DNA from: Symbiodinium sp. CCMP2592
Taxonomy: Eukaryota > Sar > Dinophyceae > Suessiales > Symbiodiniaceae
Assembly (NCBI GenBank): GCA_905221615.1
Contig: CAJNDT010000332.1
Coordinates: forward strand, 1-64,000
Length of the DNA stretch: 64,000 nucleotides
Direction: 5' to 3'
Shown here: positions 7,442 through 50,122 of the stretch, piece by piece
How the letters are laid out: every line of letters begins with the position of its first letter
Position numbering within the stretch: position 1 is the first letter of the stretch
The notes under the pieces: generated by a model
The model's input: only the letters and a program-made list of their open reading frames with translations
Databases searched by the model: none
Told to the model about the DNA's origin: nothing
Program-made: the position numbers and the translations under genes

Positions 7442-7547
7442 GGCTCGTCACTAAAAGAAAGAAACTCTAACTGGCACTCAGCTCGAGGTTACCAGCTGCG
7501 GGTCTGCGGCGTCTCTGAGTCTAAGCTGAGGACGCGACGTATTGGGC

Positions 7548-14678: not shown

Positions 14679-14739
14679 TGTCACTCACGCTTCTCTCAAG
14701 CAACAACCAAGCACGTCCTTGCTGAAGCGTAGCCAGGAG

Positions 14740-14755
14740 CCACGCTCCGCTACCA
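14740..14755 (-). other. Primer-binding site of the copia element
   Basis: On the element strand TGGTAGCGGAGCGTGG follows the 5' LTR end with no gap. It starts with TGG, the complement of a tRNA CCA end, and resembles the initiator-Met-type site TGGTATCAGAGC used by many copia elements. Confidence 0.75.
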
Positions 14756-18580: not shown

Positions 18581-18599
18581 CCTTTGGGTAGTATAACAC

Positions 18600-34578: not shown

Positions 34579-34610
<32 letters not shown>
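34579..34610. repeat. (TG)16 microsatellite at the left edge of the giant PLE
   Basis: A perfect TG run ending exactly where the left pseudo-LTR unique sequence begins (ACAACCCTG). The internal junction at 49417-49427 carries a short version (GTGTGTGTGTG), which fits insertion into, or slippage at, TG repeats. Confidence 0.95.
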
Positions 34611-34611
<1 letters not shown>

Positions 34612-35613: not shown

Positions 35614-36909
35614 ATGCCTCCTCGTCCCCGTCCATCCTGTGCACCTGGACTCTGGCCGACCGCACCCTCTAGATCACGATCTCGGCGACGCCCGAGGTCT
35701 GCGTCTTCATCGTCCTCTACTTCTTCTTCCTCGTCAACGCCGGCGGCACCTACGACCCGGACTGCCGCACCTCAACGTTCCACGTTGACTGGCCGAATCG
35801 CTGCCCCGTTACAGCCTCCACGACCTATTGATATGGCAGCTCCGAGCACTCTCCCTGATCTTTCTCCTCTTCCTCCGAGCCCGTTTTGGCCTGGTTTACC
35901 TCCCGCTGGCTCCCCGCCGTCTTCCTCCAACAACGACCAGTCCGTGCCTGCTGCTTATGCCTCCGCCTCGCCGCCGGACCCGTCTTCTACCCCTACGGCA
36001 TCTTCGACTTCGCCACCTACAGCATCTTCGACTTCACCAGCTCCTTTCAGCTCTGCTTGCACGCTGGCCACCTTACGCCAGTGTTTGGCCGCGGCAGGCC
36101 AGCTTGATGCCTACCTGCAATCCGATTACTCTACCCGACTGGGCTCCCTCAAGGCGGTACACTGGGATCGAGTATATACTGCATTGCTGCAATACAGGTC
36201 CTACTTCAAAGCGCTCCCTCATCGTCGACAATGTCAACAGGAGTTGCTCTTGGACGGACGCAAATTTGACGTGCCTTTTACTTTAGCCGATCCGTTTCTT
36301 ACAGTGATGCATCTGCTGGTACATGCGGGATACCATCCTCACAGTGTTCAGTTCAAGTTCACACACGTCGAGGCTCCCCAACATCAACCAGACAAAGCTG
36401 GCCGACCCATGCTCATGGTGTCGCTCCCCTTCCCCGCAGCAGCTGTACGGGTTAGCGGGGCACCTGCAGTCGCCTATTTTGGCCATAACACGGACCTTCA
36501 GGCCGCCTTTGGCATCCTGAAAGAAGGATGCATTCGCCCCAGCAACTATGACCCCGTTGACACTTCTTGGCTGCCGAGTCCTGCCTTTTACTCTCGCGCT
36601 TCCGTCCACAGTCTCAGCGGAGCCCTACGGGCTGCAGCCAAGTTTGGGGGATGGGGTTCTCCCCGTCCGATTTGTGTATATGGCCGAATCCCTATTTGCT
36701 ATCTCGACATAGCCAATGCTGCGCCTACCGACACACCGTCTTCAGTGCTTCCCAACACTCCCGCGGCCTATCACCTGAAGAGCGACAGCGGAGGCACCGT
36801 CCCCGAAAACGCGGCGAACTACTTCGTCTCCATCCTCCACGGCAACGACAACCGTTGGGGTGTGCACTCCACGCTCGCGCAACCAGAAGGCATCGCCGTG
36901 TTCATGTGA
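35614..36909 (+). CDS. PLE cistron A: Ser/Pro-rich N-terminus plus ART-like C-terminal domain
   Basis: 431 aa from the ATG at 35614; an in-frame ATG at 35590 is also possible. Residues 1-150 are Pro/Ser/Arg/Thr-rich, with an Arg/Ser cluster (SRSRSRRRPRSASSSSS). The rest is globular-looking. Near residues 285-310 lies YFGHNTDLQAAFGILKEGC followed by IRPS, which resembles the H-x-T...A..IL..G.I.PS start of ADP-ribosyltransferase-like/RNA 2'-phosphotransferase-like folds; further down come PICVYGRIPICYLD and VPENAANYFVSILHG. The ART reading is an inference from one motif. It is the first cistron after the left pseudo-LTR, and no CCGCAG motif lies directly before it. CTTTTCCCTGTAG at about 35570 is a possible acceptor, and the pseudo-LTR motif lies about 0.96 kb upstream. 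Confidence 0.7.
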   Translation: MPPRPRPSCAPGLWPTAPSRSRSRRRPRSASSSSSTSSSSSTPAAPTTRTAAPQRSTLTGRIAAPLQPPRPIDMAAPSTLPDLSPLPPSPFWPGLPPAGSPPSSSNNDQSVPAAYASASPPDPSSTPTASSTSPPTASSTSPAPFSSACTLATLRQCLAAAGQLDAYLQSDYSTRLGSLKAVHWDRVYTALLQYRSYFKALPHRRQCQQELLLDGRKFDVPFTLADPFLTVMHLLVHAGYHPHSVQFKFTHVEAPQHQPDKAGRPMLMVSLPFPAAAVRVSGAPAVAYFGHNTDLQAAFGILKEGCIRPSNYDPVDTSWLPSPAFYSRASVHSLSGALRAAAKFGGWGSPRPICVYGRIPICYLDIANAAPTDTPSSVLPNTPAAYHLKSDSGGTVPENAANYFVSILHGNDNRWGVHSTLAQPEGIAVFM

Positions 36910-36989
36910 GAGGACCCACAAAAGGTGTGCGTGATTTGCGTTATGGCATGGCTGGTCTCTTTGTTGCTGCCGCCTTATTCTTCTTCATC

Positions 36990-37003
36990 CCGCAGCCGTT
37001 TTG
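36990..37003 (+). promoter_or_regulatory. DinoSL-like acceptor motif before cistron B
   Basis: CCGCAGCCGTTTTG preceded by TTATTCTTCTTCATC. DinoSL begins CCGTAGCCATTTTGG, so 12 of the first 14 bases match. The polypyrimidine tract plus CAG fits a 3' splice acceptor. The next ATG, 38 bases after the AG, is the start of cistron B. Confidence 0.7.
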
Positions 37004-37033
37004 CTGAACTAAGTGTGACCTTGCTAGCACATC

Positions 37034-37981
37034 ATGGCCTCCTCCGCCTTCACTCCTGAGTATTTGCAGTTGTTCTTGGTGTTTTTCGAGTCGTTGTCCG
37101 ACCACCAACTGCTCCAAGTACGTGATGTATTACTACGAGCCCATCAGAATCGATCGACGTTGACTCCTATGACACCGGTGGCTACGACAACTACTCCACC
37201 ACCTCCGGATGCTCCCCCACCTGCCACGGCGCTGCTCACCTCCAGTGACCCAGGCCCTTATTCCTCTTCTGGACCTCCAGTACTTCCAGACAGCAGTGGT
37301 AGAACAGCGGCGATGCCTACGACTCCCATGGGACCACCAGTACTTCCAGACAACAGTGGTAGAGCAGCTGTGATGCCTGCAACTCCCATGGGACCACCAC
37401 CGATTCCGTCTCATTTGGATCCTTCTCATTTGGATCCTTCCCAGCGCCAGACCCTACCACGGCTTCGCAGACGGGACCGCGACTATCCCCGAGATGAAGA
37501 CCGTTCTCGCCCTGCAGACCGCGATCGGGATCGTCATCGCCGGCGACGTCGTTCAGTATCGTCACCTCCTGCTGACCCACTACCTGCCGGCCCTTCTTCT
37601 CCTCCGATGCCATCTACTTCGGGGTATTCTGATGCCAACCAGATCGGCCACACAGCTCCACCCCCCGCCGTCTCCAAGCATTCTGGACGCGCTCTTGCAC
37701 CTAAGATCGATGCTGACGGTTCTGTCATTTACGTGCCGGTCAAAGCCCGACCACAAGTTCCACCTCCGCGGACCACAACGTCGACAACTGGCCGATCCCG
37801 CAGTCGGCGTCGCCGCCGCGATCGTGCTGACCGAGACCGTGACGATCGTGAGGATCCTGACCGCTCTCGAGGTGCGCGTGATGTCCCCCATCGCGATCGA
37901 GACCGCGATCGACACCGTCGGGATGTGAGCGGCGACCAGCAGCGGCCACCCTTGACTCTCTACTCCGTCGCTCGGGCCTGA
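37034..37981 (+). CDS. PLE cistron B: Arg/Asp-rich, RS/RD-type protein
   Basis: 315 aa; ATG 37034 is the first after the acceptor motif. The N-terminal 40 residues look folded (YLQLFLVFFESLSDHQLLQV). A Pro/Thr-rich region with a duplicated GPPVLPD(S/N)SGR(T/A)A unit follows. The last 180 residues are very basic and acidic in alternation (RDRDRHRRRRRS; RDVPHRDRDRDRHRRD), like the RS/RD domains of splicing-related and RNA-binding proteins. A nucleic-acid-binding role is an inference from composition only. An alternative frame (37494-37928) is also open but lacks support. Confidence 0.65.
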   Translation: MASSAFTPEYLQLFLVFFESLSDHQLLQVRDVLLRAHQNRSTLTPMTPVATTTTPPPPDAPPPATALLTSSDPGPYSSSGPPVLPDSSGRTAAMPTTPMGPPVLPDNSGRAAVMPATPMGPPPIPSHLDPSHLDPSQRQTLPRLRRRDRDYPRDEDRSRPADRDRDRHRRRRRSVSSPPADPLPAGPSSPPMPSTSGYSDANQIGHTAPPPAVSKHSGRALAPKIDADGSVIYVPVKARPQVPPPRTTTSTTGRSRSRRRRRDRADRDRDDREDPDRSRGARDVPHRDRDRDRHRRDVSGDQQRPPLTLYSVARA

Positions 37982-38031
37982 ACAAAACATGTGCCCCCGC
38001 GGCCTCTGCGCCTCCTTGTTTCTTGGTTGTT

Positions 38032-38045
38032 CCGCAGCCATTTCC
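38032..38045 (+). promoter_or_regulatory. DinoSL-like acceptor motif before cistron C
   Basis: CCGCAGCCATTTCC after CTCCTTGTTTCTTGGTTGTT. ATG of cistron C lies 47 bases after the AG and is the first ATG. Confidence 0.7.
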
Positions 38046-38084
38046 TACATCATTCCACAGTCTTGCGCTTCCCTGACACCACAC

Positions 38085-38696
38085 ATGTCTTTCCGACGCT
38101 CTGCTTCCTTTTCATCTTCTGCCTCTTCTTCCTGCTCGACATTGTCGTCATCCACTTCGGCAACTGTTCGGGAGTACTTGGACGTATTAACTGATCCTTT
38201 CATTCTCTTCCGGGTGTTCTTACTATTCTTGGAACTTCGTCTACGCACAGCTCTCGTCCCTCCGGACTCGATGATGGACACTGCCTCTGCCCGTCCACCT
38301 GCTCCGGACTCCACTTTGAGGTGCCTCTTTCCTATTGCTGAACTACATGGCCAGGCCCTTGCGTTCCGGACGGAACGCGACTATCACCTTCACTATGCCC
38401 TCGCCGAGATCACATTTCATCCCCGTGCCGTTGCTTCTTTGATGGTGACCTGCTCGCGAACATATTACGCAGTACGAGCCCTTCTTCGTGATCGTGGACT
38501 TCAATACGCCTTCTACGTGGAACGCACCCCCGATCTTCCACGCTCACATTCTTCTCGACCGCGCTTGTCCATTTTCCATCCGTTTTGTCCACAACAAGTC
38601 CGTGGCATGGCGTTACACCGTGGACTTCAACATTGGGTCTTCATTCCCTCCAGCTACCAGGAGTTACCTCTGATCCGGCTCGGACGTTTCTCATGA
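38085..38696 (+). CDS. PLE cistron C: unknown, probable member of the E/F/H/L family
   Basis: 203 aa from ATG 38085, chosen because it is the first ATG after the acceptor motif (the frame itself is open from 37989). A Ser-rich start is followed by a Leu-rich helix (FILFRVFLLFLELRLR, residues 39-54). Then RDYHLHYALAEITFH (about 98-112), an Arg-rich helix and PSSYQELPLIRLG near the end. The YH...(A/L)..TF...L...R spacing matches the core of cistrons E and F (YYHGLFVLTF...NR). No known domain was recognised. Confidence 0.65.
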   Translation: MSFRRSASFSSSASSSCSTLSSSTSATVREYLDVLTDPFILFRVFLLFLELRLRTALVPPDSMMDTASARPPAPDSTLRCLFPIAELHGQALAFRTERDYHLHYALAEITFHPRAVASLMVTCSRTYYAVRALLRDRGLQYAFYVERTPDLPRSHSSRPRLSIFHPFCPQQVRGMALHRGLQHWVFIPSSYQELPLIRLGRFS

Positions 38697-38763
38697 CGCG
38701 CACTCAGGATCTGGACAAAGAGGACTATTTGCTACCGCAGCAGTTCCTAAGCGAGCTCATTCC

Positions 38764-38787
38764 CCGCAGCCGTTTCTATTTTGGCTC
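38764..38787 (+). promoter_or_regulatory. DinoSL-like acceptor motif before cistron D, with second relic
   Basis: CCGCAGCCGTTTCT at 38764-38777 runs into ATTTTGGCTC at 38778-38787, an exact 10-base match to the 3' part of DinoSL. The arrangement resembles tandem spliced-leader relics known from dinoflagellate retrocopied genes. The first ATG is 63 bases after the AG and starts cistron D. Confidence 0.7.
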
Positions 38788-38832
38788 CTTTCGCCTGCTT
38801 CCTCACGCCTCCTCCCATTCTTCCTCCTCCTG

Positions 38833-40317
38833 ATGCCTCCACACCGTTCTCGCACTCCACCTTCCCGGCACCATCGTCTACATGGACGTGATGAACCTTC
38901 TCGACATGATCCCTATTCGTCCCAGCGGAACATGACGACGCAACCTCCCAGGTCCGGGTCCTTCCGGGACAATCGCGCATACAGCCGGACGTCTCCTCCG
39001 CGGTCCCGACGACATCGCAGCCGCACTCCGGTGTCCCACACGCCGGAACATCACCGCCACCGCAACCGTGGCCCTTCGATTGGACAACATCGACATCGAG
39101 ATCCTGACGCTGATTCTCCCCCACGACGCCGACTACACTATTCTTCACCACGGCCATCGTCTCGACGACATCCTCTTCCTTCCGCCTCTGATCGACGGGC
39201 ACCACACTCGGACAGCCGGGTGCACTTCACTCCTCCACCTCATGACGATCCATCCCACTATTCCTCCTCCGGTGCACCTCCAGCTCGACGTGAACCTCGC
39301 CGTGACCGTCGTGATCCTCCTTCCGCTCGGGATCATCGCCTACTTCAAGAACGCTACGAAGACATCTATTCGCTCGGCGCCAACTGGGAAACCACCGACC
39401 TCTTCCTTGATGCGAACCCAGACCGCGGTTTCCCTCTACCGCGCAATGTCGTAGACACTGCCTTTACCCGGCGTCTCGGCATCGCCGAAATGCCTATTCA
39501 TCTCGTCCCTATTGTGTCGCTTACCCCAAATGCTGGACAAGCATGGATCGTCCGCCTGCTGGCGGCTGGCCGCCCTCTGGTGATTGAAATTTTCAGGACG
39601 CGGCAGGAAGCGCTTTTGGCGTCATTCATTATTCGGACGCTCCGCAAATCCTCGGACCAATACGACATCTCTGATGTCCTTAAACAACTACATGACAATC
39701 ACACAGTCGCTACTGAAGGCCCACGCGACCTTACCGTATGGGCGTATCGCGCTCAGCTCTTGCAACACGTGGCAGACAAGGTTGCTGCGACGATTAATGA
39801 TCTACTACCCCACGGAGAAGGTGCAGCTGGAGGACGACCTGGACTTCTGGAACAAATTCAACGGTTGCAGCAGGACAACGACCAGCTCAGGATGCTTGCC
39901 GCTGGCACGGGCGCCGAGACCCTACCTCATCCACTTGCAGAACCGAACCCTCCACCAGATGCCGCCACCAGACTCCGGGACTCCTTTTCCAAGTTCGAAC
40001 GACTCGATCGCCGCGCTGTCCTTGCGTCCAACTCCCCCAAATCCGCTTCTACCACCGATGTGAAGAAATGGCTCGACGGTCTCATCAAGCTCCATCGCGA
40101 ATCCTACACACCGAAGCTCACCGAGTTGCAGGGCATCTTGAAAGAGGCCACCGCGGGCGTCTTGCCACCCTTGGACAAAACCCTTGTAGATTGGGGACTG
40201 ACCGTCAGTTTGGCTTCCAAGTTGTCTGAAGTTAACCAGCAAAAGCTCTTAGCGATGACGGCGGTCCTCTCCGCCTTCCAGCCAGCCGTGGTTCCTGCTA
40301 CTGCTCCCAGCACATGA
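38833..40317 (+). CDS. PLE cistron D: RS-rich N-terminus, helical C-terminus
   Basis: 494 aa. Residues 1-180 are rich in Arg, Ser, His, Pro and Asp (SRTSPPRSRRHRSRTPVSHT), resembling SR-protein tails. The second half looks folded: PLVIEIFRTRQEALLASFII, then a helix LLEQIQRLQQDNDQLRMLAA that could form a coiled coil (about residue 345), then a Leu/Ala-rich helical end. This layout would suit a Gag-like or RNA-packaging protein, but there is no zinc knuckle or known domain. A second frame open at 39068-39454 overlaps the RS part; it is explained by base composition. Confidence 0.7.
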   Translation: MPPHRSRTPPSRHHRLHGRDEPSRHDPYSSQRNMTTQPPRSGSFRDNRAYSRTSPPRSRRHRSRTPVSHTPEHHRHRNRGPSIGQHRHRDPDADSPPRRRLHYSSPRPSSRRHPLPSASDRRAPHSDSRVHFTPPPHDDPSHYSSSGAPPARREPRRDRRDPPSARDHRLLQERYEDIYSLGANWETTDLFLDANPDRGFPLPRNVVDTAFTRRLGIAEMPIHLVPIVSLTPNAGQAWIVRLLAAGRPLVIEIFRTRQEALLASFIIRTLRKSSDQYDISDVLKQLHDNHTVATEGPRDLTVWAYRAQLLQHVADKVAATINDLLPHGEGAAGGRPGLLEQIQRLQQDNDQLRMLAAGTGAETLPHPLAEPNPPPDAATRLRDSFSKFERLDRRAVLASNSPKSASTTDVKKWLDGLIKLHRESYTPKLTELQGILKEATAGVLPPLDKTLVDWGLTVSLASKLSEVNQQKLLAMTAVLSAFQPAVVPATAPST

Positions 40318-40451
40318 ACGTGATCGTCCTCGCTGTCCTTCAGCTGGCACTTCGCATCAACTGCTACCATCGCGGGGGTGGCCGCAGTCGAACGGAAACA
40401 GTCTGCAGCGTTGCTTGCCTGCCTGGACGTTGAGTCATATGTTTACGATTT

Positions 40452-40465
40452 CCGCAGCCGTTTCC
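40452..40465 (+). promoter_or_regulatory. DinoSL-like acceptor motif before cistron E
   Basis: CCGCAGCCGTTTCC. ATG of cistron E lies 31 bases after the AG. Confidence 0.7.
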
Positions 40466-40488
40466 TTAAGGGTTTTGCTATTAATACC

Positions 40489-41091
40489 ATGCCGCTCCAG
40501 CTTTCCACACTTCCTTGCGGATTTTTGCATCAGCTCCTGGACTACCACCAGAACTTGTTCGCGTACGCCGTGGCCGCGACCCACCCTCCTATTGATAGCA
40601 GTCCAGGCAATTCTATTCGGCAGACCACGCGACATCCCGATGACATCATGATCCGTGACCGTCTTGCGGAGCTCATTGACCGTCACAATAACCTCTTCTA
40701 CGGGTTCTTCCGCGTTGGGGACAACTATTATCACGGCCTATTTGTTCTTACCTTCGACATCGGCGTCATTTCGGCACTTTCGGCTACCAACCGCCATCTG
40801 AATGATGCACTCGCCATCTACCTTCTCGCTCGCTCCATGACCACAGTCGCCCTCCTACCCGCGGATCGTTCTGAACCCCCTGATCTTCTTCGTCGGCGTC
40901 TTCCACTTGGGTCAGAGTTCTCCAGCATTGTGCGGTTCTCCTCTTTGACATACCGCCTGGGCATTCCCTCCTATTTGACTGAGTTCGATTGCACGGAGGT
41001 CCCCCGCAGTCGTCTATTCCGATTACGACTCCATGCCTTCGGCACCGCCTTGCAGAGCAGACATCTTCAGGACACCTCCTGGAGCGGATGA
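40489..41091 (+). CDS. PLE cistron E: paralogue of cistron F
   Basis: 200 aa from ATG 40489, the first after the motif. Residues 78-85 read DNYYHGLF, followed by NRHLN (101-105), an Arg-ending helix, VRFS (148-151) and IP (159-160). Cistron F has the same landmarks in the same order (DNSYHGLF 109-116, NRNMN 132-136, VRFS 193-196, IP 204-205), so the two are clearly homologous and arose by duplication within the element. There is no signal peptide. No catalytic pattern or known domain was recognised; a structural or nucleic-acid-related role can only be guessed. Confidence 0.75.
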   Translation: MPLQLSTLPCGFLHQLLDYHQNLFAYAVAATHPPIDSSPGNSIRQTTRHPDDIMIRDRLAELIDRHNNLFYGFFRVGDNYYHGLFVLTFDIGVISALSATNRHLNDALAIYLLARSMTTVALLPADRSEPPDLLRRRLPLGSEFSSIVRFSSLTYRLGIPSYLTEFDCTEVPRSRLFRLRLHAFGTALQSRHLQDTSWSG

Positions 41092-41169
41092 TCGTGGGAT
41101 ATAAAGACTCCTCACTGTCCCTTTCATCACTGACTTCATTCCCTCTGAGTTATTTTCCGTGTTCTCTGC

Positions 41170-41183
41170 CCGCAGCCGTTTCA
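41170..41183 (+). promoter_or_regulatory. DinoSL-like acceptor motif before cistron F
   Basis: CCGCAGCCGTTTCA after TTATTTTCCGTGTTCTCTGC. The first ATG, 47 bases after the AG, starts cistron F. Confidence 0.7.
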
Positions 41184-41222
41184 GCTAATTGGCTTACCCT
41201 TCATCCACTTGCTCGTCACACC

Positions 41223-41987
41223 ATGGCGAACTTGGCACCGGAGGCACTGGTGGACCTTCCTACTACCTCTGAATACCGCGAATGGGTCGCAGCTGCTCGA
41301 GAATCTCGCAGAGATCGCACTACACCGACCTCCTCGACCAACTATGTCTCATTATCCTCTGGGGAGAACCCTACGATTCCCATCTTCACCGACGTCCCGG
41401 TCAATTTTTGGCTTTCTCCTTTCATTGTGATGAGAGGCTGGTTGGTTCCGTTCTCCTCGACCTCACCGCGACCGCACATCCACCAGATTATGCACGAGGT
41501 GATGACGGAGGCCTGTAACATGTACTATGAGGTCGTCCAGATCGCGGATAATTCTTACCATGGATTGTTCGAGATTATACTCGACTTGTATCTCACTACG
41601 CAGCTCCTCCGGGTTAACCGCAATATGAACTATGAAGTCATTCACTTCTTGCACGGGCGCAACATTACCCACTTCATTACTCGGGACGTTCATCAGCCTC
41701 GACCCGCTCAACTACTACCAGGTGAACCTACTCCCCGTATGCGCGGACCGTTTCTGCCTCCACGCATCCTACCCATTGGCACCACCTACGCTGACGTGGT
41801 CCGGTTTTCAGATGCGGTTCTGACATTGATGATCCCTCATGAAATTCACACCTGGGAGGCTCTTGAGTTGTTGCAAACACAGCTACGGTGTCTACGCGCC
41901 CGCTCCTACCTATTGCTTGGACAATGTCTTCATTACCACCGCCGCGTGTTCTTCACCGCAGCTTCCGCCAACGATGTGGATCCATGA
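41223..41987 (+). CDS. PLE cistron F: paralogue of cistron E
   Basis: 254 aa. Shared core with E: DNSYHGLF (109-116), NRNMN (132-136), VRFS (193-196) and a following IP. F has a longer N-terminus (EYREWVAAARES, then WLSPFIVMRGWLVPF) and a longer loop before VRFS. It is preceded by E and followed by G after 175 bases. Sequence divergence between E and F is high, so the duplication is old although the element copy is young. Confidence 0.75.
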   Translation: MANLAPEALVDLPTTSEYREWVAAARESRRDRTTPTSSTNYVSLSSGENPTIPIFTDVPVNFWLSPFIVMRGWLVPFSSTSPRPHIHQIMHEVMTEACNMYYEVVQIADNSYHGLFEIILDLYLTTQLLRVNRNMNYEVIHFLHGRNITHFITRDVHQPRPAQLLPGEPTPRMRGPFLPPRILPIGTTYADVVRFSDAVLTLMIPHEIHTWEALELLQTQLRCLRARSYLLLGQCLHYHRRVFFTAASANDVDP

Positions 41988-42102
41988 CGCCGTGCTCCGC
42001 ATCCTGGTCCTCATACACTCTTTTTGACTGCCCGCACGAAAAAGATCCTACGCTCGATGCCCCATTCTTTTCATGTGCAATCCTTTCTCTGATTTATGGA
42101 TC

Positions 42103-42116
42103 CCGCAGCCGTTTTC
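42103..42116 (+). promoter_or_regulatory. DinoSL-like acceptor motif before cistron G
   Basis: CCGCAGCCGTTTTC. ATG of cistron G is the first ATG, 54 bases after the AG. Confidence 0.7.
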
Positions 42117-42162
42117 CCATTGGGTTATAACACGGCCGCGTCCCTTTTTCACGCCGACCTCT

Positions 42163-42573
42163 ATGAAACGATCAGCCGCTGTCGCAGGACTACCTACTCC
42201 ACCTAACCTAATACGTCTGCGTGTTCTGATTCCAGCCTGGTTCCTTTGCTGTGACCTACCCGATGACGGTGGACATGCAGAGTGGTTCGACTTTCATGTG
42301 TGGAGCGACATGCTCATTGATCATGTGAAACAACGACTCTCGCAACTGCTTCATCAACGCCATGGTCGGTACTTGCACCCATCACACTTTCAGTTACTCC
42401 AGGGCGACCGGCACCTCTCCTACATGAGGAGCACCACTGCGATTGCCACCGTCAAGGACGCTGAAATCCTCCGAGAAGAACCCGCTTGTGGCAGTCTACT
42501 TGAAGCCCGCCGAACGACCTGGCAACCGGCCATTGAACTACCTCCTGGTACCACACCGACTTGGAGACCTTGA
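42163..42573 (+). CDS. PLE cistron G: small protein with possible ubiquitin-like fold
   Basis: 136 aa. The middle has a pattern of strand, strand, helix and Leu-containing turns (IRLRVLIPAWFLCC; WFDFHVWSDMLIDHVKQRLS; HPSHFQLLQGDRHLS; ATVKDAEILRE) that follows a ubiquitin-like beta-grasp layout (beta-beta, K-containing helix, FQLL.G..L, then D.E.L). There is no C-terminal Gly-Gly tail, so it would not be a conjugated modifier. The fold is my inference from pattern; no sequence family was recognised. Confidence 0.65.
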   Translation: MKRSAAVAGLPTPPNLIRLRVLIPAWFLCCDLPDDGGHAEWFDFHVWSDMLIDHVKQRLSQLLHQRHGRYLHPSHFQLLQGDRHLSYMRSTTAIATVKDAEILREEPACGSLLEARRTTWQPAIELPPGTTPTWRP

Positions 42574-42633
42574 CGGCAAAACAGCTCGCTGCCGCCCTTT
42601 GTGATGTGTTTCTTGTTCTCCTTTCAATACATG

Positions 42634-42647
42634 CCGCAGCCGTTTCG
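42634..42647 (+). promoter_or_regulatory. DinoSL-like acceptor motif before cistron H
   Basis: CCGCAGCCGTTTCG after TTTCTTGTTCTCCTTTCAAT. The first ATG is only 17 bases after the AG. Confidence 0.7.
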
Positions 42648-42656
42648 ATCATCATT

Positions 42657-43151
42657 ATGAGTGTTCCCTTCCCCATTGCCTCGCTCGCACAAATCACCTC
42701 GTACCTGCAGTACATCGATGTGATCTTGGAGTTACACGACGATGCTGACGACTCCCCAGAATCGCATGACAACTTGCCTTTGTGGGTGACCAGGTCGTGC
42801 GCTCTGATTACCAACTCCATGCGAAGGGCCCGGCTTCAATGCGGCACACCGAGATTGATTCGACACGGATACCATGAAGCAGTCTTTCGCGTCTCCCTAC
42901 AACATGTGAGTTTATTCATTTGTCAGACAACAGCAGCTGTTTGTTCGGAATGGTGCCACGTTCTACGTGATTGTCTCGATGCCACTGAACATTTGCAATT
43001 ACACCTCACCCGCATCCCACAAGCTGCTCTACGACAAGGTGCTCCTTGCAAACTCTTCTACTGGGACGACGAGGAAGGCGTGGAAACATCTATTTCGATA
43101 CTACGAGCTGCCCTACCAGTTCGTCGCGTACGTTTTCAGCCTCTTTCTTGA
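42657..43151 (+). CDS. PLE cistron H: unknown, possible member of the E/F family
   Basis: 164 aa. Residues 71-77 (GYHEAVF) sit in a context like E's YYHGLF, followed by a helix with VSLFICQTTAAVCSEW. The protein is Cys-richer than its paralogues. Its upstream neighbour G ends 83 bases before. No domain was recognised; homology to E/F rests on a short core and is tentative. The RT cistron follows after 109 bases. Confidence 0.65.
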   Translation: MSVPFPIASLAQITSYLQYIDVILELHDDADDSPESHDNLPLWVTRSCALITNSMRRARLQCGTPRLIRHGYHEAVFRVSLQHVSLFICQTTAAVCSEWCHVLRDCLDATEHLQLHLTRIPQAALRQGAPCKLFYWDDEEGVETSISILRAALPVRRVRFQPLS

Positions 43152-43232
43152 TTCACTCCATACCGCCCTGCCTTCGGAAAACCGTCCGACCTTGCTATCC
43201 TTTGTTGCGCTTGCTTGCCCCTTCCCTTTGGT

Positions 43233-43243
43233 CCGCAGCCGTA
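43233..43243 (+). promoter_or_regulatory. DinoSL-like acceptor motif before the RT cistron
   Basis: CCGCAGCCGTA after CCCCTTCCCTTTGGT. The first ATG, 22 bases after the AG, starts the 1274-aa RT protein. Confidence 0.65.
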
Positions 43244-43260
43244 TATATTCGGGACGCTTC

Positions 43261-46200
43261 ATGCCCCCTCCCCCACCTACGCCCATGGTCCATGAACGGC
43301 GTCGGTCTCGCACTCCACGTCGACACCATTCTGTACGTGCTGAATGCCCTCCTCATGCACGAGTACGAGGCAACAGACAGGCTCAGACCAGACAAGCTCG
43401 ACTCATTGATTTTCTACATCAGGGCCCACTTCACCCACTGTATCGCCGTTTTGCCAATGGCCAGTCGGTGTACCCGCTTTCTTTCGATTCCACCGATGCT
43501 TTACTACTCGTCAACGAGGTCATTCGTCAATTGACAGAAGGTTCTTCATTGTCACCAGCACAATTTTCTGCACTACGAGATGATGACGTTGCCCACCACC
43601 TACGACATGAACTCTTCCCTTCTTCATCATCCTCTACCTCTTCAACATCCCGGCCAGTCATGGGTTTTAATCATCTGAGGAGATCACAGACATCTGACAG
43701 TCTACTACTCCGAGCAACCCCGACTTCATCTTTGCGGCGCTCTATGACCAGGACATCCACAACTCCGTCTACATCTTCAACCTTATGGATTCCACCACCC
43801 CCTCTCGATGCCATGTTCTCTCACCGTCCAGATCCCACACACAGGCCGTCTCCACCTCGGGTACATTATACCTGTCCTTCCTCATGTGACAGGTCCCAGC
43901 CACCTCGGACTCCCACATCTTCCTCTACAGGTCTAACTTCCTCGACCAGGACGTCCCTTACCACACCAACCGGCTGGGCTAAAGACTCGGACCTCAAGAT
44001 TGACGGATTGACATCGGCACTACGACCAACTTTGCCTTCGATCTCCGACTCGCGCATCAATGAGTGGTTGGTCAGCAGATACGCACTGACACGCGTTCAG
44101 GTTGCTCACACCTTACAAACCTCCGCTCTCCGACTCCTCTTCTGCCTGGAGATCTTCAGCTTTGACCACCTTTTCGCAGAAGATTTGGGAGACGACGAGG
44201 ACGACGTTCCACAATTATCTCCGCGAACCCCAGCACGTCACCGCCTACCACCTCATCTACACCGACTTCTTACATCCTTCCTAGACTTTTACATTGCGGC
44301 ATTGCCGATTATACGACAAGTTCTTCCACATCATGTCTTTGGACGTCTCTCTTGGGTACGTGCTCTGTGGTTCCTACAACTTCATCGTCTACGGTTCGCC
44401 ACTACTACCAACCATCGCGGTCTCCAGGATCTATTCTTCAATTTGGACGTACAGCCGTACACTCTGCGACATCATTTACAGTCCAGCGTCGTCTACATCA
44501 AAGTCTCCCACAAACACCCCGGATGGTACATCGGCTCCACCATCCACACGATCATTGACCGGGAAGTTAGCCGCCGCTCCAAATACAATCAACTTTGTTC
44601 TGGCACTCAAGCGTTCTTCGAGCCTGCCTTACGCATTTGGCACGCTGCCGGTACCTACGACCATCACCTACCTATTACTTTACAGCACCGACCTACTGAA
44701 GAACAAGTCCGCGCCTTGGAACAATCTCTAATTGCCACATATCATCCACACTTGAATGCCCCCTTCGTCTACACGTTCCTACGGAAACTGGGAGTACAGC
44801 TGGAAGCACCCATGGTCACCACCTTCTTGGAGGGTGGCAACGGTGCTCGTCTCCTACGTGCTCATCATCGCTACACACACTACCGGGATCTACCGGAACT
44901 CCTTGGCACTCGCTCCCTCATCGAACAACGGGAGACCCTGGCCACAATTATACAATATGTCGGCAGCAATGGCGTCCTCAAGTTTTTCTCACAACGAGTT
45001 CTACGTCGGAATGGCACTCCGATAGCCTACCTGTACTTACTCGTACGCTTCCTTGTCTTCGTGGATGAGCCACATCAAACACGTGCCCTACAAGCTTTAC
45101 GCTTAGCCCTTCGCTACAAAGGAGGAGAGATCCCACCTCGTCATCGATTACTTCCTCTTCCTCAATTGGCTCATGACTTTTTACGACAAGCTCAACATTG
45201 GTTGGACAGCTACATACTTCATCACCGAGAATGGTTCCCACCTTACCATCTACCACGATACACCATCACCGAGAAGAAGGCCCCTACGCTTGGTCAAACC
45301 TTATTCAATCACCACGCATGGCTACGATTGTGGGACCCAGAGAAACCCTTCTTGTGCTGTTGTCGACAACTACCAGGACAACGCACACCCTCGGACCACG
45401 TCGCAGCCCCAGCCGATGTCGTTCTGAACGAATCCATCTTTCGGGAAAACATGAGCGACGGCCGATGGTTGACCAAATCCCAATTTCGCAGGTGTACAGT
45501 GGCCCCTTTGAACCGATGGTTCAAGTTGTGGCGACAACCCGACCAATCCTTACTTCGCTGGCAAGTCTTTGTTTCACACCAATGGCAACTCCACAGCCAC
45601 ACTCTACGGATGCGTCCTGACGGCAGACAGTTACGCGAACTCAAGAATTTACGGGAAAGCTCGGAGCACATCGTGATCTCCCCTATTGATCATGGACCGC
45701 ACTTGGCTTATGCATTTTGTCCTCGACAATACTTCGACATCTTGACCAAGACTTTCTTGGATCCTGCAGTCTTCTGGCGACGAGACACCAACCCGATGCA
45801 GCTATCGGAACACATACAACGAGCTATAAAACGACATGTTCCCCCACGTTATCACTGGGCCCTGGCACCCAAAGCAGCTTTGCCGTATGCCTACGTGCTC
45901 CCCAAGCCCTCCAAACAATTCCTGAAGGGGCGCCCGATTGTCAGCTATTCCAACACGTGGTGTGCCACGCTCGCGAAATTTCTTTCTACCGCGGTCCTAC
46001 AGATGCTACAGACTGTTGTTCCACCTCAGTTCGTGTCTCCTACCGTCCACTCCATCATCCAGACGTTCATCCATGCCTTCCGCAACAACCCGGTCACCGT
46101 GGAACTTCAGCTACTTCAACAAGATCTTTCTGGTTTCTTCACTTCGGTTCCACATGATCGCATTTACCACTCGATCTCGTCGTTGACAGACATGTTCGCT

Positions 46201-47085
46201 CGCCACCAACAGATTCCTTTGGACTCCGACATACAGATCACGATGCGGGACCGCAATTCACTTGGTCGCCTATTTCGAGGCCGATATCGAAAAGCCGGTT
46301 CACATTACAAACCTCTATGCCTTCGCGACTTACCTTCATTGGTTATGTTCTTGCTACGACACTCCTTTTTCACAGTTGGCACGGAGATTTTGGTACAACA
46401 TCGCGGGGCCTCTATGGGCTCACCCATGGCCCCCTCAATGTGCGGAGCGACTGCAGCCCTGTGGGAAGCCACATTCCACCAACTCATCCGCGACCAGATG
46501 CTGACCTCTCGTTATTTCTGTTCTTCACGCTATGTGGACAATCGGTGCCTCCTTCGGATTTGGGACGGGGAGCTGGAATCCCTGGACGATCACCAACGGC
46601 ACCACTCCCACCGAGGCCACGATCCTTTTTCGTCATCCTCTACGTCCCCGTATGGTTGGTTCCAAGAAGTATATTTACATCCACATTTCTATGGCCTTCC
46701 ATTGGAATTGGAACATGTTCCGGGACAAGAACTACTGGGCACCGTCGTGGACACCGCACAACGTACCATTCGACTCGTCCTTCCACGGAACAGTATTTCA
46801 TTGCGCTCCCCGTGCTCAGTCTCTTCGACACGCAGGAACACTCAGGGACTGACCACACGGATTTATCTCATTTGCCGATTATCCTGGCCCAAAGCCGTCA
46901 TTGCTCCTCAAGTTCGTGAACTTGTTCATCTATATCGTGAACGAGGTTTCTCTGAACGCTCACTGGAAGACGCCTCCCGGTCCGTACTCCGTCGTTTTGG
47001 ACTACGTTGGCGACAGGTCAGTGAACCCCCGGAAAACTTGCTCGCATGCGTGTATCGAACTGGCACCCTTCAGTCCGTTTGTTGA
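43261..47085 (+). CDS. PLE cistron I: GIY-YIG endonuclease-reverse transcriptase
   Basis: 1274 aa from ATG 43261; the frame is open from 42967, but this is the first ATG after the acceptor motif. Residues 1-340 are Arg/Ser/Pro-rich with weak folding signals. The GIY-YIG endonuclease starts with VYIKVSHKHPGWYIGST (411-427), continues with a basic stretch and ends with LEQSLIATYHPHLN. A CCC cluster (699-701, LCCCRQLPG) lies between endonuclease and RT, where N-terminal-endonuclease PLEs carry a CxC motif. RT motifs: GRPIVSYSNT (about 890), QDLSGFFTSVP (Asp 955), RGASMGSPMAP (about 1050) and catalytic YVDN (1091-1094), where the family normally has xDD. PLE RTs are related to telomerase. The Asn needs checking: it could lower activity or mark this copy as dead, but the frame is otherwise intact. 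Confidence 0.88.
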   Translation: MPPPPPTPMVHERRRSRTPRRHHSVRAECPPHARVRGNRQAQTRQARLIDFLHQGPLHPLYRRFANGQSVYPLSFDSTDALLLVNEVIRQLTEGSSLSPAQFSALRDDDVAHHLRHELFPSSSSSTSSTSRPVMGFNHLRRSQTSDSLLLRATPTSSLRRSMTRTSTTPSTSSTLWIPPPPLDAMFSHRPDPTHRPSPPRVHYTCPSSCDRSQPPRTPTSSSTGLTSSTRTSLTTPTGWAKDSDLKIDGLTSALRPTLPSISDSRINEWLVSRYALTRVQVAHTLQTSALRLLFCLEIFSFDHLFAEDLGDDEDDVPQLSPRTPARHRLPPHLHRLLTSFLDFYIAALPIIRQVLPHHVFGRLSWVRALWFLQLHRLRFATTTNHRGLQDLFFNLDVQPYTLRHHLQSSVVYIKVSHKHPGWYIGSTIHTIIDREVSRRSKYNQLCSGTQAFFEPALRIWHAAGTYDHHLPITLQHRPTEEQVRALEQSLIATYHPHLNAPFVYTFLRKLGVQLEAPMVTTFLEGGNGARLLRAHHRYTHYRDLPELLGTRSLIEQRETLATIIQYVGSNGVLKFFSQRVLRRNGTPIAYLYLLVRFLVFVDEPHQTRALQALRLALRYKGGEIPPRHRLLPLPQLAHDFLRQAQHWLDSYILHHREWFPPYHLPRYTITEKKAPTLGQTLFNHHAWLRLWDPEKPFLCCCRQLPGQRTPSDHVAAPADVVLNESIFRENMSDGRWLTKSQFRRCTVAPLNRWFKLWRQPDQSLLRWQVFVSHQWQLHSHTLRMRPDGRQLRELKNLRESSEHIVISPIDHGPHLAYAFCPRQYFDILTKTFLDPAVFWRRDTNPMQLSEHIQRAIKRHVPPRYHWALAPKAALPYAYVLPKPSKQFLKGRPIVSYSNTWCATLAKFLSTAVLQMLQTVVPPQFVSPTVHSIIQTFIHAFRNNPVTVELQLLQQDLSGFFTSVPHDRIYHSISSLTDMFARHQQIPLDSDIQITMRDRNSLGRLFRGRYRKAGSHYKPLCLRDLPSLVMFLLRHSFFTVGTEILVQHRGASMGSPMAPSMCGATAALWEATFHQLIRDQMLTSRYFCSSRYVDNRCLLRIWDGELESLDDHQRHHSHRGHDPFSSSSTSPYGWFQEVYLHPHFYGLPLELEHVPGQELLGTVVDTAQRTIRLVLPRNSISLRSPCSVSSTRRNTQGLTTRIYLICRLSWPKAVIAPQVRELVHLYRERGFSERSLEDASRSVLRRFGLRWRQVSEPPENLLACVYRTGTLQSVC

Positions 47086-47090
47086 TTTAT

Positions 47091-47111
47091 TCGCAGGCAT
47101 TTTAGGTCAAG
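47091..47111 (+). promoter_or_regulatory. DinoSL-like acceptor motif before cistron J (longest match)
   Basis: TCGCAGGCATTTTAGGTCAA plus G. Aligned without gaps to the 22-base DinoSL, 17 positions agree, including ATTTT and the TCAAG end. It directly follows the RT stop after GTTTGTTGATTTAT. The first ATG is 36 bases after the AG. Confidence 0.75.
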
Positions 47112-47132
47112 TTACCACCAGAGCCCTTCATC

Positions 47133-47987
47133 ATGGCCGGTTCTTCACCCGATTCCTATCTCTTGGACGACGTCACCTGGACACCAGACCCGGACATGGA
47201 CTCAGACCTGGACGCCTCCTCCGCCCATGATGCTGGTCTACCTCCCGCCGGTTCAGATGTTGATGGGGACCACACACCTCATCCCACCCTTCCTCTTTCT
47301 CCCTCTCCTCTCCCCAGAATACCCGCCAGAAAACGCCGTCGACGACACCGCCACCACACTACCTCCTCTTCTTCCACATCATCCCGACCTTCCAAGGCCA
47401 CGTCAACATCATCTTCGACATCTTCATCGTCTTCATCCTCTTCTTTGTGCCCCACTGCGGAGCTACGAACACGGGACCCACCTATTTCCTCGTCCCGTTC
47501 GAAGACACGCTCACGGAAGACACCTTCCGGGACCAGCACTACCACTCCAGCGACAGGAGCTACACCAGCCCAGACCAATTCTCCCTCAGCGACTTTACAC
47601 GCTCCCCCTCGTGTCCGAATTCCTCCCCGAGGAAATGGTTATACATTACATCGAGTACGCCGCAGCAAGTCGGGCACTACACATTCCACCGTATCATTCC
47701 ATGGAGATGCCGCAGAACGTCGCCGACAACAGTGGCTCCGACAATGGCGCCAATGCACTCCTGCCTCCCCGTACTATCAGGACGTGCAGAACTGCATCAG
47801 ACATCGCGCCCGCATTATGTTGGACATCATAGCACATGAACGAGGAGGACCCACTGCGGCTTCGGACAATTCACGGATACGACGCCGCTATCACCTACCA
47901 GAAGACCAACTCATCCCTCTGGCACTCATCTACCGGGATTGCGCTGCTCGCCGACGACGGTCCGTCCGTGAAGTTCTGAGTACCTGA
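47133..47987 (+). CDS. PLE cistron J: acidic start, Ser/Arg-rich middle, basic C-terminus
   Basis: 284 aa. It begins with an acidic segment (DPDMDSDLDASSAHDAG), then a basic cluster ARKRRRRHRHH that could be a nuclear localisation signal, then long Ser/Thr runs. The C-terminal 90 residues look folded (YYQDVQNCIRHRARIMLDII; EDQLIPLALIYRDC). No known domain. Two other frames are open over part of this gene (47227-47832 and 47447-47839). They arise where the main frame has C at the second codon position, and I prefer the main frame because it starts at the first ATG after the motif. Confidence 0.6.
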   Translation: MAGSSPDSYLLDDVTWTPDPDMDSDLDASSAHDAGLPPAGSDVDGDHTPHPTLPLSPSPLPRIPARKRRRRHRHHTTSSSSTSSRPSKATSTSSSTSSSSSSSSLCPTAELRTRDPPISSSRSKTRSRKTPSGTSTTTPATGATPAQTNSPSATLHAPPRVRIPPRGNGYTLHRVRRSKSGTTHSTVSFHGDAAERRRQQWLRQWRQCTPASPYYQDVQNCIRHRARIMLDIIAHERGGPTAASDNSRIRRRYHLPEDQLIPLALIYRDCAARRRRSVREVLST

Positions 47988-48046
47988 TCCTACCGAGATC
48001 CTGCTCTGGAAAACATGCCCGATAACTCCGTTTCGTCGTCCCATAC

Positions 48047-48060
48047 CCGCAGCCTTTTCA
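48047..48060 (+). promoter_or_regulatory. DinoSL-like acceptor motif before cistron K
   Basis: CCGCAGCCTTTTCA, directly followed by a second partial copy CCGCAGCTTTTC (48061-48072). The first ATG is 57 bases after the first AG. Confidence 0.65.
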
Positions 48061-48109
48061 CCGCAGCTTTTCTGTACAAACACAGTTGGCTTCCCTTCCT
48101 CACCAACGA

Positions 48110-48688
48110 ATGGCTTCCTTCATTGACGTCCTCCCCTTGCTCCTCTCCTATTTCGAGATGCAGACTGTGATACAATTGGATCCCCGTCATTGCCAACGTC
48201 CACACACTGACGACCGCCACACCACTCGTTCCGCCTTCTCCATTTTGACCGCACATCACGGCGATTGTTCCTGGCACCAATATGGCGTTTGGCAACAGTT
48301 CCTCGCCGCCCTTCAAGATCACAAGATGAGCGCCCACAACTTCTTTGGCTTCCACCACGACAACACGGTGTTCACGATCTATCACTATCAGCCCTCGGTC
48401 ATTGTATACTGCAATCAATTGTGTTGGCGGGCCCACGTCCACCTACGTTCCGCATCACGACTTTGCCTACGTGTCCGTATTCGAGACCCTACCCTAGCAC
48501 AGTGGCGACCTACTTCGTCTGGACCCTGGATTACCACATGCTGGTGTTCAGCGCATTGCCTTTCCTTTTCCAAATGGACACCTACGATTTCTCGCCGCCA
48601 TTCACCTCCCCCACCCATCGCCACGGACAATCCTTATTGGCAGCAAGAACAACAACGACATGGTCTTCTTCCTGCTCTGAGACGGTGA
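48110..48688 (+). CDS. PLE cistron K: unknown 192-aa protein
   Basis: ATG 48110 is the first after the motif. The middle (NFFGFHHDNTVFTIYHYQPS, about residues 77-96) recalls the aromatic/His core of cistrons E, F and H. After about residue 120 the composition changes to Trp/Ser/Pro-rich, and another frame (to 48747) looks at least as protein-like (TLDYHMLVFSALPFLFQMDT), so a frameshift in this copy is possible. Function unknown. Confidence 0.5.
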   Translation: MASFIDVLPLLLSYFEMQTVIQLDPRHCQRPHTDDRHTTRSAFSILTAHHGDCSWHQYGVWQQFLAALQDHKMSAHNFFGFHHDNTVFTIYHYQPSVIVYCNQLCWRAHVHLRSASRLCLRVRIRDPTLAQWRPTSSGPWITTCWCSAHCLSFSKWTPTISRRHSPPPPIATDNPYWQQEQQRHGLLPALRR

Positions 48689-48766
48689 AGCTTTGGAAGA
48701 CACAGACGGCGATTTTTGAGACAAAGACCTTCACTTGCACATCATGACCCTGGTCATTTTGCTCTA

Positions 48767-48780
48767 CCGCAGCCCTTTCA
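48767..48780 (+). promoter_or_regulatory. DinoSL-like acceptor motif before cistron L
   Basis: CCGCAGCCCTTTCA after TGGTCATTTTGCTCTA. The first ATG lies 65 bases after the AG. Confidence 0.65.
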
Positions 48781-48837: not shown

Positions 48838-49428
48838 ATGGCCCCGCACCTATCCGACATTCCCTTGGAATGGTGGCTTGATTACCTGGTGGAGCTCCGA
48901 GTATGGCAAGTTCGTCCGATGACCTCCCCCGATCTCCGGATCCCTAGCACCCTCCTTGACCCGCGCTTTGTGATATCGCAACACCGATTCACCACATCTC
49001 AGAACCGCTACTACCTCGACACCCTCCACGGACTTTGTCAACTCAATCCTTCTTTCCAGCGACTGGATTACTATGACCCGGACATTTGCGGTTACCAGTA
49101 CAGCATGTTCACAACTGCACCATCTCCGAGTGCACTTCACGCACTACTTCTCGCCGACCGTCGACTACATTGCAACATGAGTCAACTGATACTGCGCCAT
49201 CGCTGGCAACTTTGTCTTGGTTTACTTGCACCTAGAGTCTATGCTCGTCATGTTGATCGACGTCACTTTCAAAGACACGAATTGCCAACTCCTCTTCGAG
49301 AAGTTCTACATCGACTTGCCTTGCACCGCTGCCAGATCCTGCAAGTTCACCCGATGGCTCTACCTGCCCTACATGCTCACCGTCTTCGTCTGATTACTTC
49401 ACCCCGCTACGGCGGGGTGTGTGTGTGA
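48838..49428 (+). CDS. PLE cistron L: last cistron, probable member of the E/F family
   Basis: 196 aa. N-terminal Trp/Leu helix (LEWWLDYLVELRVW). GYQYSMF (85-91) is followed by PSALHALLLADRRLH and an Arg-rich helix, in the same spacing as E's YYHGLF...NRHLN. The C-terminus runs into the right pseudo-LTR: the stop TGA (49426-49428) is formed where the GTGTGTG run meets ACAACCC. The last residues (YGGVCV) are therefore encoded by the junction hairpin and the TG repeat, so the natural end of the protein depends on the tandem arrangement. Confidence 0.65.
   Translation: MAPHLSDIPLEWWLDYLVELRVWQVRPMTSPDLRIPSTLLDPRFVISQHRFTTSQNRYYLDTLHGLCQLNPSFQRLDYYDPDICGYQYSMFTTAPSPSALHALLLADRRLHCNMSQLILRHRWQLCLGLLAPRVYARHVDRRHFQRHELPTPLREVLHRLALHRCQILQVHPMALPALHAHRLRLITSPRYGGVCV
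49401..49418 (+). other. Junction hairpin with TACG tetraloop
   Basis: ACCCCGC-TACG-GCGGGGT: a perfect 7-bp stem with a C(UACG)G loop, a very stable tetraloop class. It lies directly before the TG run that opens the right pseudo-LTR, at the candidate 3' end of the element body. Confidence 0.75.
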
Positions 49429-50122
49429 CAACCCTGTATCCAAGGGCCTTCTCCTCACGCTCTGCAGCCATTTCCTATTTACGATGTACATATAACTGAA
49501 CTTGAGGGCAGATTACACAGCAGGGGCTTCAGTGCAGATTACACAGCAGGGGCACCAGGGGTGTGTGGCTTGGCCTGGTGCAACGAAGCTCCAGTCACAC
49601 ACCAGGATATGGTCGGGGGACGCCTTGACCACGTACCTGCACTTTGCTTGTGACGCAGTACATGGACTTACGCTGTGTATTGGTTATTCTTCGTATTCCG
49701 TATTGCTGCTGTTAACGGGTATGGCCCGGGGCTAAGCCGAGAACCCCAACCAGTCGTTCTCCTGCAGCTATGGTATCACTTCAGAAACAGTCAGTGCTTG
49801 AGTTCATGTCGTCTGGTATGTGCTGGTTTCTGGATGGCCTGGGGCTAAGCCGAGAACCCCGTCTAGCGCGTACACTTTCAAGCATTGCTCAGTGCCAGTG
49901 TCCACCTCTTCAGTCCTTGCCGTGTCCTTCGGTGCGTTGGGGTTCAGGCTGGCGTTGTGGTTTAGTTAGGCAGGTTGAGGTGTGAGCCACAGACTTTCTG
50001 CACTTCATCTTTGCAGTTGCTGTCCATGAAGCTACCTGTCCGAAGTCTCTGATGTGTGGTCGCTTGAGACCTGGACATCAGGTGGTCCGTCGCATACCGA
50101 AACCTTCCTTAGCATTCAGTGT
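49417..50122 (+). repeat. Right pseudo-LTR of the giant PLE
   Basis: Copy of 34600-35305 (ORF translations identical, no indel). It contains the DinoSL-like motif at 49462-49475 and the twin blocks at 49723-49747 and 49836-49860. Similarity ends at ...CATTCAGTGT; the left copy continues GTAGTCC (element body), the right copy continues AGGGGCAGG (flank or truncated junction). Confidence 0.9.

Follow-up and report, generated by a model that had tools for sequence, protein, structure and literature searches.

Architecture of the element

The 64,000-nucleotide stretch of Symbiodinium sp. CCMP2592 DNA analyzed here (contig CAJNDT010000332.1, positions 1 to 64,000, forward strand; hereafter the window) contains a 15.5 kb multi-cistron retroelement, probably Penelope-like, in which a conserved 12-base motif lies before every internal cistron. 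The element is bounded by identical direct repeats of 706 bp (34600-35305 and 49417-50122, + strand) and, since these repeats are identical, the insertion appears to be young. Such repeats are what one expects of the pseudo-long terminal repeats (pseudo-LTRs) of Penelope-like elements (PLEs), and true LTRs would look alike. The region that runs from the upstream repeat up to the beginning of the downstream one contains 12 open reading frames (ORFs), named A to L, all on the + strand, all open and each ending in a TGA stop: A (35614-36909, 431 aa), B (37034-37981, 315 aa, rich in Arg, Asp, Ser and Pro), C (38085-38696, 203 aa), D (38833-40317, 494 aa), E (40489-41091, 200 aa), F (41223-41987, 254 aa), G (42163-42573, 136 aa), H (42657-43151, 164 aa), the reverse transcriptase (RT) cistron (43261-47085, 1274 aa), J (47133-47987, 284 aa), K (48110-48688, 192 aa) and L (48838-49428, 196 aa), the last with its stop codon inside the downstream pseudo-LTR. 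No further copies or fragments of the element were found within the window. A (TG)n microsatellite adjoins the element's left end (34580-34610); the right flank is not TG-rich.

The RT cistron is the largest ORF and encodes a GIY-YIG-like stretch (approximately residues 410-497) followed by a reverse transcriptase, both of which Pfam recognizes weakly. RT motifs are visible in the protein, with a weak match to RVT_1 (E 0.012-0.087), while the match to PF01541 (GIY-YIG) covers almost the whole domain and is below cutoff both in the window (E 0.17) and in the relative P0003 (E 0.012), a protein from an ENA contig that is 33% identical over 93% of the query. The catalytic box reads RYVDN, not YxDD, in the window copy and in P0001-P0004, P0003 included. 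The GIY-YIG-like stretch is N-terminal to the RT in this element; in canonical PLEs GIY-YIG is described as C-terminal to the RT (PMC11167929). Structural approaches were uninformative in that an AlphaFold model of the RT from a 5-row alignment was useless (pLDDT 32.9), a PDB sequence search with the RT gave no match and a profile gave one chance-level match (E 0.27). Hammerhead ribozymes have been reported for PLEs and are not considered universal; Rfam gave no match, hammerhead or other, in the pseudo-LTR, either at the gathering score or at E values up to 5, and none at gathering scores across the whole window. The element is probably Penelope-like, a term that we use as a working label rather than as a proven membership.

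Codon usage, trained on RT and D, gave the annotated frame the top score among all three + frames for 9 of the remaining 10 ORFs. The exception is cistron E, which fell narrowly below its frame 2; a reverse frame scored even higher in both E and J. Cistrons E and F are diverged paralogues (28% identity over 144 aa, E 2e-16) with a common YHGLF box, and L is perhaps a third member of this family (F/L, E 0.014); the cistrons otherwise have no clear mutual similarity.

A 12-base motif in every internal gap

The original prediction was that one motif or a close variant of it precedes all 11 internal cistrons and occurs once in each pseudo-LTR, and this held at every position. CCGCAGCC-N-TTT is present on the + strand in all 11 gaps, each time between a stop codon and the next ATG. 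Seven copies are exact as CCGCAGCC(A/G)TTT, namely those before B (36990-37001), C (38032-38043), D (38764-38775), E (40452-40463), F (41170-41181), G (42103-42114) and H (42634-42645); three have one mismatch, before RT (43233-43244, reading CCGTAT), K (48047-48058, CCTTTT) and L (48767-48778, CCCTTT); and the most diverged, before J (47091-47102, TCGCAGGCATTT), has two. The pseudo-LTRs each carry the variant CTGCAGCCATTT (34645-34656 and 49462-49473, + strand).

The exact motif occurs 7 times in the window compared to a mean of 0.03 and a maximum of 1 in 100 dinucleotide shuffles. With up to two mismatches allowed there are 24 occurrences versus a mean of 11.1, and 1 of the 100 shuffles reaches 24; this window-wide count is less striking and the signal is therefore the placement of the motif. 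In a de novo search that made no use of the earlier motif, the best 12-mer (up to two mismatches) was the same motif and was found in 11/11 gaps, while the best 12-mers reached at most 5 gaps in 100 dinucleotide-shuffled gap sets and at most 6 in 100 sets of coding segments. A chance origin of the motif was considered and rejected on the comparison with the shuffled sets.

The continuous conserved block is 12 columns wide, and outside it only scattered single columns stand out (1.13 bits at +34 and 0.90 at -8). Within the block GCAG never varies, be it among the 11 copies or in the pseudo-LTRs, while all four bases occur at position 9 (7 G, 2 A, 1 T and 1 C; n=11). Pairwise identity of the 11 copies is 0.905 inside the motif and 0.282 and 0.277 in the two flanks, against a random expectation of 0.261. 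Given this difference, the copies look as if they are held by selection and not as if they stem from recent duplication; any duplication that spread the motif would have to be old, with the motif bases kept and their surroundings lost.

The motif lies in an acceptor-like context

As had been claimed, the first ATG after the AG of the motif starts the ORF in 11/11 cases, 17-65 bases on, although the rule is partly automatic in that 69% of gap positions likewise have the cistron start as their next ATG. There are, in addition, 11 ATGs in the 807 bases between stop codons and motifs versus none in the 477 bases between motifs and start codons (p = 0.006). The reading frames of cistrons C, F, G and RT stay open beyond the motif and include an in-frame ATG on its upstream side, so that in these four it would be the motif, rather than the limit of the ORF, that determines the start.

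Random positions in the same gaps served as the control for the upstream side. Upstream of the motif, the median length without an AG is 51 bases versus 20 at random positions (p = 0.0004), and T makes up 0.425 of the 25 bases before the motif versus 0.319 (0/5000 random sets; p < 0.0002). The pyrimidine-rich tracts that had been noted before most copies amount to a mild group-wise enrichment (p = 0.02), with single copies varying. The acceptor context as a whole holds group-wise; before D, for example, an AG sits 14 bases upstream of the motif. A comparison of the nearest AG with that of other AGs was discarded because AGs cluster, which biases it. Taken as a group, then, the sites have the AG junction and the pyrimidine-rich, AG-poor upstream side of acceptors for spliced-leader trans-splicing, and the identification of the motif as a 3' splice acceptor is, at the level of sequence, well supported.

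An A-run precedes each junction motif

We also found a second conserved part of the junctions, which was not in the original prediction. Each of the 11 motifs has a single run of the form A3-5(G/C), and never two, within the 120 bases upstream of it. These runs, all on the + strand, are AAAAG before B (36920-36924, starting 70 bases before the motif), AAAAC before C (37984-37988, 48 bases), AAAG before D (38717-38720, 47 bases), AAAC before E (40396-40399, 56 bases), AAAG before F (41103-41106, 67 bases), AAAAAG before G (42039-42044, 64 bases), AAAAC before H (42578-42582, 56 bases), RT (43178-43182, 55 bases), J (47033-47037, 58 bases) and K (48010-48014, 37 bases), and AAAG before L (48723-48726, 44 bases). 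The starts thus lie 37-70 bases before the motif (mean 55, standard deviation [SD] 10). The best 34-base window takes in 11/11 A-runs versus at most 6 in 1000 shuffles and in 1000 sets of random positions in the element body, and with a 20-base window the count is 7 versus at most 6 (shuffles) and 5 (random sets). The pattern was first noticed by visual inspection guided by the known poly(A) site and was one of six tried, which makes its precise form post hoc; the choice of position is accounted for in the window scan, that of pattern is not.

The poly(A) site of dinoflagellates has been described as AAAAG/C, with G or C often coming after the 3-5 A (PMC2488372). Such a run between a stop codon and the next acceptor is found in 10/11 gaps, 6 of them with at least 4 A. 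The longer the gap, the greater is the distance from stop codon to A-run (Spearman 0.80, p = 0.003). At the RT/J junction, the RT ORF extends approximately 50 bases beyond its A-run, and a TGA in another frame lies just upstream of that run (47010-47085).

Relation of the motif to the dinoflagellate spliced leader

The consensus CCGCAGCC(G/A)TTT equals the first 12 bases of the dinoflagellate spliced leader (DinoSL) at 10 or 11 positions, in register, and single copies match at 9-11 (11/12 for the copy before C). Among the other AG-anchored 12-mers on the + strand of the window (n=3706) none reaches 10/12 and nine reach 9. The earlier claim was that the motif is the DinoSL start with one constant T-to-C change; the T-to-C change is there, but it is not the only difference, as most copies match at 10/12 and position 9 is A in 2/11.

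Beyond base 12 the evidence is mixed. Only two leaders look leader-like past this point, that of J, which has the longest leader match (16/21, or the predicted 17/22 if the first base is left free), and that of D, where the predicted exact 10-base word ATTTTGGCTC is indeed present at 38778. Over all tails beyond the 12 bases, ungapped matching to the leader is at chance level (p = 0.10; best offset p = 0.86), and the longest words common to leader and tails are slightly above chance (p = 0.012). TTGGNT occurs in 5/11 leaders (null 0.41); having been chosen after looking, it is not used as evidence. The sequence CCATTTTGGCTCAAG, by which leader relics in retrogenes (DinoRL) are recognized, is not found downstream of the acceptors, where CCNTTT alone is kept: the best copy, at 47097, matches at 12/15 and such matches occur in chance number in the window (2 versus 2.5 expected). 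The proposal that the AG inside the leader is reused by retrocopied genes agrees with the literature (PMC12014239), in which the AG within retrocopied leaders is described as a re-splicing site (PMC12014239, PMC3229502). An origin of the motif from DinoSL is accordingly to be graded, as supported by the match for the 12 bases and only weakly beyond them. Either the element domesticated the start of the leader while the remainder decayed, or the leader start and the acceptor answer to the same recognition.

Relatives and other copies

The closest relatives found were gene models of Symbiodinium sp. CCMP2592 itself, 95-96% identical over 12-52% of the query; cistron C is 95% identical to part of P0008 from the same organism. 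Cistron D has relatives in ENA contigs, P0006 (56% identical over 61%) and P0009 (46% over 53%), which suggests that D has long belonged to elements of this kind. Other copies of the element are known from translated gene models, and nine proteins were fetched. Pieces of C, D, E, F, H, RT and J are present in the annotated frame within the gene models of other copies; G is there in another frame only, and A, B, K and L were not found in them. Searches for relatives of RT, P0003, A2 and A4 in viral contigs, and of A2 in genome contigs, gave none that was confirmed, the host assembly not being among the contigs searched. Two of the gene models built from pieces of the element, P0004 and P0007 (Symbiodinium sp. 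CCMP2592), carry the names of host genes (AMY1.1, B'ETA) and look misannotated.

As far as a few translated gene models can show, the motif is also present at three leaders of other copies. PQPF, the translation of CCN CAR CCN TTY, was found at three places among the nine fetched proteins, all of them leader sites: the RT leader in P0001, the H leader in P0005 and the D leader in P0007, the last judged by order. As the RT leader has CCGTAT in the window and PQPF in P0001, the P0001 copy is nearer to the consensus at this site. Furthermore, an exon start fits just behind the AG of the motif in P0001 at H, in P0005 at RT and in P0007 at F (CCNTAY), the exons in question being gene predictions that do not demonstrate splicing.

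Discussion

Our findings point to a multi-cistron retroelement, probably Penelope-like, whose polycistronic RNA would be resolved at junction modules by DinoSL trans-splicing with coupled polyadenylation, and we consider this model likely, if well short of certain. A plausible scenario is as follows: (i) a single full-length, polycistronic precursor RNA would be transcribed from the pseudo-LTR region; (ii) each junction module would consist of an A3-5(G/C) run, approximately 55 bases of T-rich, mostly AG-poor sequence, the acceptor CCGCAG|CCNTTT and a short ATG-free leader; (iii) the host spliced-leader machinery would attach DinoSL after the CAG; (iv) coupled polyadenylation of the upstream message at the A-run would then yield 11 monocistronic mRNAs; and (v) RNA left uncut would be the template for transposition. 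The acceptor core may be the first 12 bases of DinoSL, domesticated with a change from TAG to CAG, and the message for cistron A may be made via the pseudo-LTR acceptor or another AG. The modules are present at the positions given above, they are conserved within the element and their context is that of acceptors. That splicing occurs in trans rather than in cis, that polyadenylation takes place at the A-run, that there is one long precursor and that the acceptor derives from the leader are what we infer from them. In the original prediction, the element might be a polycistron trans-spliced at leader-derived acceptors; the acceptor part and the 12-base leader match have stood up, and leader derivation beyond 12 bases rests on the mixed matches described above.

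A number of observations weigh against this model. Cistron A (35614) lacks an adjacent motif, the closest one lying in the end repeat approximately 960 bases upstream, and the exon edges of P0001 at F and J, again gene predictions, fit other AGs. Host trans-splice acceptors have no simple sequence consensus in the survey available (PMC2488372), so that a consensus of 12 bases exceeds what an ordinary acceptor needs. Polycistronic transcription of dinoflagellate genes is itself debated (PMC6027434), and according to reviews the tandem genes of the host may not be polycistronic (PMC6027434, PMC5029490). With regard to the A-run, that before J lies inside the RT ORF, and an RT message polyadenylated at this point would have no stop codon; the other 10 follow the stop codon by merely 2-78 bases. 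In Amphidinium, 3' untranslated regions of 42-143 bases and distances of 85-982 bases from poly(A) site to acceptor have been reported (PMC2488372), and the A-runs of the element are nearer to the acceptor than that. Their distance from the motif also varies less (SD 10) than that from the stop codon (SD 33), albeit with a Levene's p of 0.07 only. Five gaps have at least one AG between A-run and motif, with up to 5 before D. Finally, there is no A-run in the 120 bases upstream of the pseudo-LTR motifs; this last point can also be read the other way, as the first of these motifs has no preceding cistron, which suits a poly(A) site.

Several of these points bear on a variant of the model in which the A-run would serve the acceptor as its branch-point region instead of being a poly(A) site. 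This variant is compatible with the rest of the model, and on this point of detail we regard it as possible and somewhat doubtful. The tighter spacing of the A-run to the acceptor speaks for it, as does the run before J, whose position is hard to reconcile with a poly(A) site but would not trouble a branch-point region. Branch points, however, are usually 18-40 bases upstream of the acceptor (PMC5029490), whereas the A-runs here start 37-70 bases before it, and the AGs that intervene between A-run and acceptor in 5/11 gaps are not expected of this variant. The argument from spacing, moreover, loses force if polyadenylation is coupled to splicing. In coupling of the trypanosome type the downstream acceptor also positions the poly(A) site, and spacing therefore does not discriminate. 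We consider the A-run to be either a poly(A) site or a branch-point region, and lean towards the poly(A) site.

The main rival to the model, which we consider unlikely, is retrovirus-like alternative cis-splicing, with one 5' donor in the element leader joined to each of the 11 acceptors such that all messages have a common element-encoded leader. The same acceptor features would be expected, cis and trans acceptors being indistinguishable by sequence alone, and the intron ends predicted in P0001 at H, P0005 at RT and P0007 at F fit this AG. These are predictions, however, and the exon edges of P0001 at F and J fit other AGs. What weighs against cis-splicing is that dinoflagellate mRNAs are described as generally trans-spliced (PMC12014239, PMC6050394), that the motif resembles the trans-spliced leader itself, and that cis-splicing with one terminal poly(A) site needs no poly(A)-site-like run at each junction.

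It is very improbable that the motifs are internal promoters, with TTT corresponding to the TTTT/TTT(G) element of dinoflagellates and each cistron transcribed separately. Earlier work has put forward a TTT(G) promoter within leader relics and a TTTT motif ahead of genes (PMC6050394, PMC6027434), but TTTT is present at 4/11 motifs only, the invariant part of the motif includes GCAG, and the AG depletion, upstream T-richness and A-runs would be left unexplained. We give still less credence to a translational signal that draws ribosomes to a polycistronic mRNA. Its position 17-65 bases before the start codon would suit such a signal, which could act, for example, by pairing of AGCCGTTT with 18S rRNA (AAACGGCT); yet position 9, inside the proposed pairing, varies while GCAG does not, and AG depletion and A-runs would again be unexplained. 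Least credible of all is a functionless motif copied along with duplicated cistron units, for which the E/F paralogues (E 2e-16) are the precedent, as the motif is 90% identical between near-random flanks and cistrons other than E and F, and perhaps F and L, lack clear mutual similarity.

There is precedent for parts of the proposed arrangement. Terminons, the giant multi-ORF PLEs of bdelloid rotifers (PMC6431247), likewise combine a Penelope-related RT with many accessory ORFs and far exceed the usual 4-6 kb, but they are described as endonuclease-deficient and telomeric, with hammerhead ribozymes, whereas our element has a GIY-YIG-like stretch before the RT; in the available text of the Terminon review the terms 'trans-splic' and 'polycistronic' are absent. 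DinoSL-tagged retrogenes (PMC12014239, PMC6050394) also have leader-like sequence upstream of the ORF, with a new leader joined at its AG. They carry CCATTTTGGCTCAAG once or in tandem per gene, while the element has just 12 leader-like bases, with TAG changed to CAG, at 11 junctions. The polycistrons of trypanosomes that are resolved by the spliced leader (PMC5029490) show the same repeated order of poly(A) site, spacer, acceptor, short leader and ORF; those units are arrays of host genes, and here they would be parts of a retroelement with an acceptor consensus and very compact spacers. Tandem dinoflagellate genes (PMC2488372) have the same order of parts, with an AAAAG/C poly(A) site and an AG acceptor, but as reported they have no acceptor consensus, have longer spacers and are copies of one gene, whereas the element has 12 different cistrons.

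Multi-ORF PLEs and host polycistrons resolved by spliced leaders are, therefore, already known, and what is apparently new is the uniformity of the junction modules encoded by a retroelement. Among the matches listed from open-licence literature, judged by title and the start of the abstract, we found no retroelement with uniform element-encoded modules at all of its junctions. We lean slightly towards describing the element as a trypanosome-style operon, in which 12 proteins would be made from one genomic RNA by the host spliced-leader machinery acting at element-encoded modules, and in which the balance of trans-splicing would control transposition. If so, a eukaryotic retroelement would make many proteins without a polyprotein, unlike the Copia-type element that the window also contains. 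The RNA would act as transposition template when unspliced and as messages when spliced, and it is in this way that the balance of trans-splicing would set transposition. The element also supplies an acceptor consensus where the available survey of host genes found none (PMC2488372). With 12 different cistrons in approximately 14 kb and 11 uniform modules, the polycistron question becomes testable at one locus.

Other features of the window

The Copia-type LTR retroelement lies at 6525-15055 on the - strand and has one ORF of 2378 aa (7548-14684) with a match to RVT_2 (E 3.6e-21) and a zinc knuckle. Blocks of 300 nt in its repeats are reported as 100% identical, and each repeat contains TTGGCTCAAG (at 6681 and 14912), which corresponds to the final 10 bases of DinoSL. 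An ORF at 902-2617 on the - strand matches a retroviral-type aspartyl protease (E 3.8e-05). Degenerate repeats with a unit of approximately 60-120 bases, rich in GGGAACCCAC and TGCTGCAAAA, occupy 17872-18584.

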